From Prevotella sp. (GTDB lineage Bacteria > Bacteroidota > Bacteroidia > Bacteroidales > Bacteroidaceae): a stretch of 53,433 nucleotides of DNA. A program made the position numbers and the translations under genes. Of this stretch, positions 6,113 to 9,100 are shown one piece after another. Position 1 is the stretch's first letter. Each line of letters starts with the position of its first letter. A model generated the notes under the pieces. It did not search any database, had not been told where the DNA came from, and was given only the letters and a program-made list of their open reading frames with translations. Location: positions 1 to 53,433 of the forward strand of contig JAFUTI010000036.1 of NCBI GenBank assembly GCA_017471465.1, given 5' to 3'.

Positions 6113-9100
6113 ATGATTCGCTTTTTCAAAACCCCACAACAGAGCGTGGTGGCCACCGAGGTAGACCACGAACTCGCCCAAGAAGAAGTCAAGGAACTGT
6201 GTTGGCTCTACGGCAACGCTGAGCTGATGGACAGCGACAGTCTGTCCGGCTACTACGTCGGACCGCGTCGCGAGATGGTCACCCCATGGTCTACCAACGC
6301 CGTGGAGATTACCCAGAACATGGGTCTGAAAGGCATCCGCCGTATTGAGGAGTACTTTGCCGTCGACAGCAAGGATACCGAGCACGACGAGATGCTGCAG
6401 CGCATGTACGACGGGCTGGACCAGAATATCTTTACCATCAACATCAAGCCCGAGCCCATCAAGCACGTTGAGAATCTGGAGGAATATAACGAGCAGGAAG
6501 GTCTGGCACTGAGTCCCGAGGAGATAGCCTATCTGCACGGACTGGAAAAGCAGAACGGACGTCCGCTGACCGACAGCGAGATTTTCGGTTTTGCACAGAT
6601 CAACTCCGAGCACTGCCGCCACAAGATTTTCGGTGGTACCTTTATCATCGATGGTAAGGAGATGGAGTCGAGCCTCTTCGCCATGATCAAGAAGACCACG
6701 CAGGAGAATCCCAACAAGATTCTCTCTGCTTATAAGGATAACGTGGCCTTTGCACAAGGTCCTGTTGTAGAGCAGTTTGCACCGAAGGACCAGAGCACCA
6801 GCGACTACTTTGTAGTAAAAGATATCGAGAGCGTCATCTCGCTGAAGGCTGAGACCCACAACTTCCCTACGACGGTGGAGCCCTTCAACGGTGCTGCCAC
6901 TGGTACTGGTGGTGAGATTCGCGACCGTATGGGCGGTGGTGTCGGCTCATGGCCTATCGCCGGTACGGCTGTCTATATGACGGCGTATCCGAGACTGACC
7001 CCCCCTACGGCCCCCGAGGGGGCTTCTATAGACTCAAGCGCAGAGGCCTTGTCCCCCTCGGGGGACGGCAGGGGGGTCCGCGATTGGGAAGACATCCTGC
7101 CCGTTCGCCAATGGCTCTATCAGACGCCTCAGCAGATTCTGACAAAAGCCTCCAACGGTGCCTCGGACTTCGGCAACAAGTTCGGCCAGCCGCTCATCTG
7201 CGGTTCTGTGCTGACCTTCGAACATCAGGAGGGCAAGGAGAAATACGCCTACGACAAGGTCATCATGCTCGCCGGCGGTGTCGGCTACGGCACGAAGCGC
7301 GACTGTCTGAAGAAAGAGCCCCAGAAGGGCAACAAGGTCGTCGTCGTCGGTGGTGATAACTACCGCATCGGACTCGGTGGCGGTTCTGTATCGTCAGTTG
7401 ACACCGGTCGCTATTCGAACGGCATCGAGTTGAACGCCGTGCAGCGTGCCAACCCCGAGATGCAGAAGCGTGCCTACAACCTGGTGCGTGCCCTCTGCGA
7501 GGAAGATGTCAACCCCGTCGTCTCCATCCACGACCACGGCTCTGCCGGTCACCTGAACTGTCTCTCGGAGCTCGTCGAAGAGTGCGGCGGTGAGATTGAC
7601 ATGACGAAGTTGCCTATCGGCGACCAGACACTGTCGTCGAAGGAGATTATCGCCAACGAGAGCCAGGAGCGTATGGGCCTGCTCATCGACGAGAAGCATA
7701 TCGACCACGTACGCCGCATTGCCGAGCGCGAGCGTGCCCCACTGTATGTCGTCGGCGAGACGACGGGCGATGCCCACTTCTCGTTTAAGCAAGGCGACGG
7801 CGTAAAACCCTTCGACCTTGACGTGGCGCAGATGTTCGGTCACTCGCCGAAGACCATCATGCGCGACAATACCGTGGAGCGCCACTATAGCGACGTCACC
7901 TACACACAGGACAATATCAACGAATATCTGGAGCGCGTGCTCCAGCTGGAGGCTGTTGCCTGCAAGGACTGGCTGACGAACAAGGTTGACCGAAGCGTGA
8001 CCGGCAAGATAGCCCGCCAGCAGTGTCAGGGCGAGATACAGCTGCCACTGAGCGACTGCGGCGTCGTAGCCCTCGACTACCGCGGCAAGAAGGGTATCGC
8101 CACCGCCCTCGGCCATGCGCCTCAGGCCGGACTGGCCTCGCCCGAGGCTGGTTCCGTCCTCTCGGTGGCCGAAGCCCTGACAAATATCGTGTGGGCACCA
8201 CTGGCCGATGGTATGGACTCACTGAGCCTGAGCGCCAACTGGATGTGGCCGTGTCGCTCACAGGAGGGTGAGGACGCTCGTCTGTACAGTGCCGTCAAGG
8301 CCCTGTCTGACTTCTGCTGCGAGCTACATATCAACGTACCTACGGGCAAGGACTCTCTCTCATTGAGCCAGCAGTATCCCAACGGCGAGAAGATTATCTC
8401 GCCGGGAACGGTCATCGTCAGTGCCGGCGGTGAGGTCAGCGACGTCAAGAAGGTAGTCTCACCTGTCTTGGTGAACGATAAGAACGCATCACTCTACCAC
8501 ATCGACTTCTCGTTCGACGAGCAGCGCCTTGGCGGTTCGGCCTTCGCGCAGTCGCTGGGCAAGGTGGGCGACGACGTGCCAACCGTTAAGAACGCCGAGT
8601 ACTTCGCTGATGCCTTCATGGCCATCCAGCAGATGATTGAGAAGGGCTGGATTATGGCTGGTCACGATATCTCGGCCGGTGGTCTCATCACCTGTCTCTT
8701 GGAGATGTGCTTCGCCAACACGAAGGGCGGACTGCATATCAACCTGCACGACATCTGCAAAGACGGCGACATCGTCAAAACACTCTTTGCCGAGAACCCG
8801 GGCGTGGTCATCGAGGTAAGCGACGAGCACAAGCAGGAGTTCAAGGACTTCATGGAAGAGCAGGGTGTAGGCTTCGCCAAGATAGGTTATCCTGTTGAGG
8901 ATGCCCGCACCATCGTGGTAAAGGCTGATGATAGGGAGTTGACCTTCGATATCGATGCCCTGCGCGACACATGGTACAAGACCTCCTATCTGCTCGACCG
9001 CAAGCAGAGCTTCAACGGCAAGGCCAAGGAGCGCTATGAGAACTACAAGAATCAGCCTATTGAGATGACGTTTAATAAGAACTTCACCGGCAAGCTCAGC

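Follow-up and report, generated by a model that had tools for sequence, protein, structure and literature searches.

A palindrome in frame within Prevotella purL is probably a nuclease-less derivative of a DUF559 nuclease element with inverted hairpin arms

The palindrome that lies in frame within the essential purine-synthesis gene purL of the rumen bacterium Prevotella sp. (assembly GCA_017471465.1, contig JAFUTI010000036.1, whose 53,433 nucleotides are the window of this study) is probably a MITE-like, nuclease-less derivative of an element in which a DUF559 gene sits between inverted hairpin arms. With less assurance, we lean towards regarding this element as the representative of a new class of homing elements distributed over the Bacteroidota, in which a Vsr-like nuclease with hairpin arms invades essential genes unspliced and with the frame open. 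Enzymes such as LeuS, MetH and RecG would then carry the nuclease domain or, where it has been lost, a palindromic peptide. The nuclease-bearing full-length form is the larger finding and was missed by a sequence-only reading of the same DNA, which had described a REP-like palindromic pair in frame inside purL. The evidence is drawn from sequence comparison and consists of the repeat and its frame, the covariation of its hairpin, identical arms around the nuclease gene, shared sites, and clustering by site and by host family.

The host gene purL (phosphoribosylformylglycinamidine synthase; positions 6113..9907, forward strand as for all features given here; NCBIfam NF003672 above cut-off) is open throughout the nuclease-less element at 6997..7078, which adds 27 codons without a stop or frameshift, just as the sequence-only reading had it. 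The element is 82 nt long and consists of a left arm (6997..7022, hairpin core CCCCCGAGGGGG at 7011-7022), a centre of 30 nt (7023..7052) and a right arm (7053..7078, hairpin core CCCCCTCGGGGG at 7053-7064). The two GC-rich arms measure 26 nt each, are inverted and 85% complementary, and each forms a C5/G5 hairpin of its own. The left end of the centre, CTTCTATAGACTCA, is similar to CTTCTATAGTTTTG, which lies subterminally in the full nuclease element of genome G023. In the protein the element corresponds to residues 296-322, TPPTAPEGASIDSSAEALSPSGDGRGV.

Alignment of PurL placed the insertion after the motif MTAYPRL, as expected from the earlier reading. The loop at this place is short in 26 of the 31 proteins compared (a count that includes L032 and L037, scored from alignments), holds a palindromic element in three (the window, L225, and L018 of G023) and another insertion in two (L017 and L144). 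The nearest relative by identity, L010, has HDDEGAA where the window protein has its 27 residues, so that the net gain relative to L010 is 20 residues and not 27. A whole nuclease inside PurL was not seen among the proteins compared. L225 stems from a separate uncultured Prevotella MAG (SRR12081303_bin.51) with purL flanks 80% identical to those of the window, and because it carries the same element at the same position, the assembly artefact that the earlier reading had considered can be discarded. At four-fold sites identity amounts to 42% in the flanks of these two genes (511 sites) and to 89% in the element (18 sites), the latter figure being inflated by the demand for exact cores in both sequences. 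In the PurL tree the window and L225 are sisters (87/91) and G023 falls in a different clade; the site has thus probably been occupied more than once, and a single origin followed by losses may also account for the pattern. An AlphaFold2 model of PurL (650 residues, 27 sequences) was poor, with a mean pLDDT of 51. Other repeat-like insertions occupy the PurL loop of L017 and L144 and the loops of L219 and L195 (e.g. ESEELRVKSEES; PLPLPVREGSG...REGQGGES). Since they sit in the same loops in other species, these loops are hot spots common to several repeat families.

A second element, of another arm family, spans 9872-9977. Its left arm (9872..9902, hairpin 9883-9900) encodes in frame the last PurL residues, and its right arm (9946..9977, hairpin 9949-9966) is likewise read in frame, close to where the next ORF begins. 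The last part of PurL and the beginning of the following frame are both formed by this pair, so that purL has two such elements. The arm type resembles that beside the DUF559 genes of L290 and L297. Elsewhere in the window genome (G000:C51) a DUF559 gene with other-type arms lies upstream of a gene which we take to be argC; the gene upstream of the element stops at the left arm, and a start codon for the presumed argC is within the element.

The sequence-only reading had proposed a genome-wide search for the arm. The exact core was found 17 times in the window genome and the reversed pattern not once, and the palindrome is therefore not a product of chance. The 17 cores make up 13 loci, of which 11 are in frame inside long ORFs, one is near an N-terminus and one is outside long ORFs. 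Judged from their translations, the hosts besides purL presumably include leuS, argS, gcvT, sufB and a subunit of a 2-oxoacid ferredoxin oxidoreductase. A related composite element lies in the presumed argC. Of these gene names, purL alone was checked against a model in this genome. Two related proteins of this genome (L049 and L050; G000:C37 and C45) carry the element at the same place and were probably duplicated after the insertion.

The exact core is present in 52 of 120 genomes of the same genus, with a maximum of 154 copies in G121, and at least 119 stretches with the core were found in a scan of the GTDB species collection, both being counts that miss diverged copies. The titles of these stretches name Prevotella, Prevotellaceae, Bacteroidaceae or Bacteroidales, and many refer to the rumen or another ruminant stomach.

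A set of named MAGs, with which Set B (G022, G023, G065 and G121) overlaps, yielded 141 clusters; 13 were too close to a locus end, leaving 128 classifiable copies. Of these, 117 are internal to ORFs (i.e. within an ORF of at least 150 codons), three are N-terminal, three C-terminal and five non-coding or in short ORFs. Random 54-bp stretches from the same loci were non-coding or in short ORFs in 447 of 4760 cases, so the copies, in contrast to ordinary REPs, show no excess outside genes. One codon phase is common to 114 of the 117 internal copies, which encode peptides like APLSSPEGDTI...EAPSGAVGGAS, and 67 of 70 internal pairs have their cores spaced by a multiple of three. The base pair flanking the core (-1/+1) is complementary in 136 of 140 units (G-C 67, T-A 50, C-G 19) taken from loci picked without restriction on those bases; complementarity through three pair types indicates that the hairpin is maintained, either by selection or by self-templated repair. 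A core of another subtype, in G028, is internal in just 4 of 23 classifiable copies. In six loci (L044, L095, L097, L112, L138 and L146) the unit is read in another frame (e.g. LPLGGVGGGLLTSC) within apparent lipoprotein signal peptides, and one gene duplication history could account for several of them.

The full-length form was recognized in G023 (L084/L302), where two arms surround a 125-codon gene matching DUF559 (PF04480, E 4e-33). Altogether, purL-family arms enclose a DUF559 gene of the Vsr/EDxHD type in four genomes, the elements measuring ~455-464 bp end to end, with exact purL-family cores on both sides of the gene in L302 (G023), L294 (G083), L313 (G109) and L288 (G065). These are the only ones among 72 distinct fetched genus loci with a purL-family core within 300 bp, and their nucleases form one clade (100/98). 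The four genomes hold 24, 94, 23 and 38 cores, respectively (Fisher p 9e-5 for at least 20 cores). The arms of L093 surround what, read by eye, appears to be a remnant of the nuclease C-terminus. In G023 and G065 the inner ends of the short elements match the ends of the full elements at 60-68% over 14 nt, compared to ~27% for shuffles; here the short elements share their ends with an autonomous element of their lineage, as MITEs do. For the window genome, which has four two-core elements, the inner ends match the full elements at just 0.34-0.48.

Arm sequence varies among the DUF559 loci. Inverted arms were significant (p<0.01) at 62 of the 72 distinct DUF559 loci of the genus as compared to 2 of 72 random intervals, and non-significant at ten; direct-orientation similarity also reached significance at 28 of the 72, since the arms are themselves hairpins. 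At phylum level arms were significant at 17 of 29 loci (RecG 0/4, MetH 2/4). The 72 loci are a non-random sample chosen by score, genome and frame length: 79 loci were fetched (from 16 chosen genomes, the 30 best scores and 20 places picked, nearly all of them, for long open frames), and one without a hit and six duplicates were removed.

A DUF559 gene was found in 63 of 120 genus genomes (E up to 1e-10). It is present in 17 of the 19 genomes with at least ten cores versus 46 of the 101 others (p 4e-4), the exceptions being G022 and G090. Among the 34 genomes with at least three cores, eight gave no match, including G022 (11 cores) and G090 (20 cores). The window genome (63% complete) gave no match to the nuclease subtype with purL-type arms, its one DUF559 gene having other arms. 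This subtype was likewise absent from the matches of high-copy genomes such as G121, G034 and G096, which hold other DUF559 genes. The nuclease itself matches PDB entry 3r3p, 'Mobile intron protein' (E 2e-4), 3hrl (E 7e-21) and the PADLOC homing-endonuclease model (E 2e-6). Residues E32, D60, E71, D73 and H77 are invariant in 62 of 62 aligned proteins, so that domain homology, conserved acidic residues and a conserved histidine together identify a nuclease of the EDxHD/Vsr type.

Many of these nucleases lie in frame within other proteins. Among the 132 genus matches listed, 41 are within an open frame of at least 283 aa, compared to ~125 for the nuclease alone, and 34 of 78 fetched matching loci (partly chosen for long frames) have at least 150 residues of another protein in the nuclease's frame. 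By similarity these 34 fusions comprise gmk (8), RNase H-type proteins (6), ispF (5), LeuS (2), a pair we presume to be argB (2), helicases (2) and nine singles; Pfam detected LeuS, guanylate kinase, YgbB (IspF), RNase H, DegT, epimerase, ABC and AAA domains in the ten fusions scanned. Many fusions are N-terminal, and an internal start could separate the two proteins; the internal insertions, such as those in LeuS, are clearer cases. Across the phylum, 127 of 296 genomes carry the DUF559 family, as do 81 of 140 genera. The best 29 loci by score include 24 host fusions, with RecG and MetH in four genomes each and a second and a third place of LeuS in three each, and further hosts among these 29, which come from other families, are methylmalonyl-CoA mutase, HsdM, HsdR and others (one to three per group were named by Pfam scan, the remainder by similarity). 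Seventeen more loci with long frames added, by similarity, LeuS at the second place (two), HsdR (two) and HsdM (one) as well as apparent hemF and hisF hosts. One further locus, L409, was set aside. Whole nuclease genes or remnants thereof are in frame in leuS, metH, recG and purL, and splicing machinery was not found: Pfam detected no intein domain in the 20 host fusions scanned (E up to 1e-5 and 1e-8), and Rfam gave no match, hence no intron RNA, in seven loci. Homing nucleases usually depend on self-splicing introns or inteins to inhabit conserved genes (PMC3943268, in excerpt). An element that stays open in frame would need neither of them inside a conserved gene.

Short and nuclease-bearing forms share insertion sites between species. 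At a first LeuS site a short element is found in the window genome and a whole nuclease in G067 (L316). At the second site short elements occur in G023 and RUG200 (L252), and nucleases in G113 (L338) and in five genomes of another family, f29. In Prevotella L243 the MetH site holds a short element, and four genomes from three other families have nucleases there. LeuS matches (E up to 1e-20) came from a single place in each of 12 genomes (ten with a nuclease in LeuS, two with short elements), eight of which are at least 90% complete.

Short elements at the same place were compared in 14 two-core pairs from different genomes with a gene-wide DNA identity of up to 95%; twelve duplicate loci and all single-core pairs were omitted, and some of the 14 share a locus. 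In seven pairs the centres are 88-100% and the elements 94-100% identical, while the surrounding genes are 76-92% identical, which fits a transfer of the element alone or the repeated arrival of one copy. In the other seven the centres differ, which fits repeated insertion at one hot spot. Co-conversion of flanks was considered as proof of homing and dropped, the signal of longer identity runs being weak (combined p 0.04).

The phylogeny of 58 nucleases carries a signal of the insertion site. Site labels require 14 changes on the tree (minimum 12; shuffled mean 36.1; 0 of 200 shuffles as low) and, for the five sites of the genus alone, 5 changes (minimum 4; shuffled mean 12.4). MetH nucleases from three host families form a clade (100/98), as do HsdR nucleases from two (100/99). 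However, host-family labels cluster as well, with 14 changes (minimum 10; shuffled mean 26.9), and the claim that the tree tracks site rather than host was rejected for this reason. The second-site LeuS nuclease of G113 groups with the first-site nuclease of G067 and not with other second-site nucleases; no single clade is formed by gmk, by argB or by either of the multi-genome LeuS groups. Given the host-family clustering and the grouping of G113 with G067, part of the pattern may be vertical, and groups confined to one family (RecG, hemF) may reflect vertical descent. As judged from the tree, the nucleases fit homing lineages with local site switching.

The scenario that we consider best is as follows. 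An allele that lacks the element is probably cut by the nuclease, at the element's site or close to it, and repair would then copy the element into the cut allele. Short copies would have moved likewise, with the nuclease supplied in trans. Since arms and nuclease can be read without stops, insertion in the right frame would leave a working host enzyme, and the insert would add to a tolerant loop of that enzyme either a flexible peptide or an entire nuclease domain. The hairpins may serve for recognition in single strands or for protection. We infer cleavage, copying and mobilisation in trans, and likewise that the insert is translated and that the enzyme tolerates it.

Four other explanations have to be weighed against the nuclease scenario. 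It seems unlikely that the unit is a REP-type repeat, moved by a RAYT (an IS200-like Y1 transposase) and spread into genes by happenstance. The unit is indeed a small hairpin that occurs singly or in inverted pairs, as REPs do, and intragenic REPs have been reported from other species (PMC3733652, in excerpt). PF01797 was matched in 34 of 60 genus genomes (a sample that includes the window genome) and in 12 of 14 chosen core-rich genomes, and 8 of 18 RAYT loci have inverted flanks of their own. Yet RAYT mobilisation, searched for in the window's own genome, the 60 genus genomes and the 14 chosen ones, was rejected: none of the 23 PF01797 loci fetched, with ~1.5 kb of flank apiece unless a contig ended earlier, contains an exact purL-family core, whereas such cores flank the four DUF559 genes; PF01797 was not found in the 63%-complete window genome; and the copies are mostly within genes. 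The label REP-like of the sequence-only reading is therefore not supported in the sense of RAYT-mobilised extragenic repeats, while its comparison to Rickettsia holds as far as multi-copy in-frame palindromes are concerned. Two Y1-transposase loci (L063, G025:C21; L155, G083:C1) have their own, different GGGGC hairpin repeats, which suggests that the genus also harbours ordinary RAYT/REP systems.

Still less probable is that the inserts are retained for a benefit to the host, as disordered linkers or mRNA hairpins, with mobility being incidental. The dominance of one frame (114/117), whose peptides are rich in A, P, S, G, E and D, the compensating changes that keep hairpin pairs through three pair types (136/140) and the rarity of non-coding copies relative to random stretches would all be compatible with such a benefit; the patchy presence at the purL site among close relatives, the functionally unrelated hosts and the ability of the LeuS and MetH sites to hold a whole nuclease instead speak against it. 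That the insert is removed or skipped, as an intein or a group I/II intron or by translational bypassing, is highly improbable. Introns and inteins typically bring a nuclease into conserved sites of essential genes, and bypassing elements are hairpins; but the Rfam and Pfam scans reported above returned neither intron RNA in the 7 loci nor an intein domain in the 20 host fusions, and the strict conservation of frame in 67 of 70 spacings would be needless for an insert that is removed or skipped. We give just as little credence to a local origin of immobile palindromes through template switching in replication. Arms run into repeated GASGA/APKAP stretches in some copies and their perfection could stem from self-templated repair, but the same arm sequences occur in unrelated genes and around the nuclease gene, and the identity between species at a same site can be confined to the element.

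If true, the nuclease scenario would provide a candidate mobiliser for in-frame palindromes of bacteria, perhaps also for those of Rickettsia, for which none is named in the excerpts of PMC3733652 and PMC10969869. It also offers a route by which enzymes could gain loops and domains. That the palindromes are coupled to a nuclease, and that whole nucleases lodge unspliced and in frame in essential enzymes, may be new as far as open-access titles go: among the titles listed for the open-access literature (subscription papers being outside its scope) none concerned DUF559 elements with palindromic arms, or such elements in Prevotella.

Among known systems, the Rickettsia palindromic elements (Ogata et al.) are likewise palindromic repeats that lie in frame in unrelated genes and each encode a conserved peptide (PMC3733652 and PMC10969869, in excerpt), and the elements described here are palindromic repeats in frame in unrelated genes. 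They differ from them in belonging to a different phylum and in having a nuclease-bearing full-length form. The likeness was drawn from descriptions, so the present element can be said to work like these elements rather than to be a member of them. With I-Bth0305I, which we take to be the protein of 3r3p, and with Vsr and DUF559 proteins it shares a homologous nuclease domain and recurrent insertion sites; its nucleases cluster by site, though also by host family. In contrast to the mobile intron protein 3r3p, the gene here lies between hairpin arms, free-standing or in a host frame, and no intron or intein was found in the loci scanned. The EDxHD family of homing endonucleases has been described (PMC3943268, in excerpt). 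REP/BIME repeats with their RAYT are similar in being short GC-rich hairpins, single or in inverted pairs. The present copies, however, are mostly intragenic (117 of 128 internal), no Y1 transposase linked with the repeat was found in the 63%-complete window genome or among the 23 fetched PF01797 loci, and the exact cores lie beside DUF559 nucleases and not beside the fetched Y1 transposases. Inteins with a homing endonuclease also place a nuclease in frame within conserved enzymes; here, by contrast, no splicing domain was found in the fusions scanned, the flanks are short palindromic arms, and nuclease-less copies consist of little beyond these arms.
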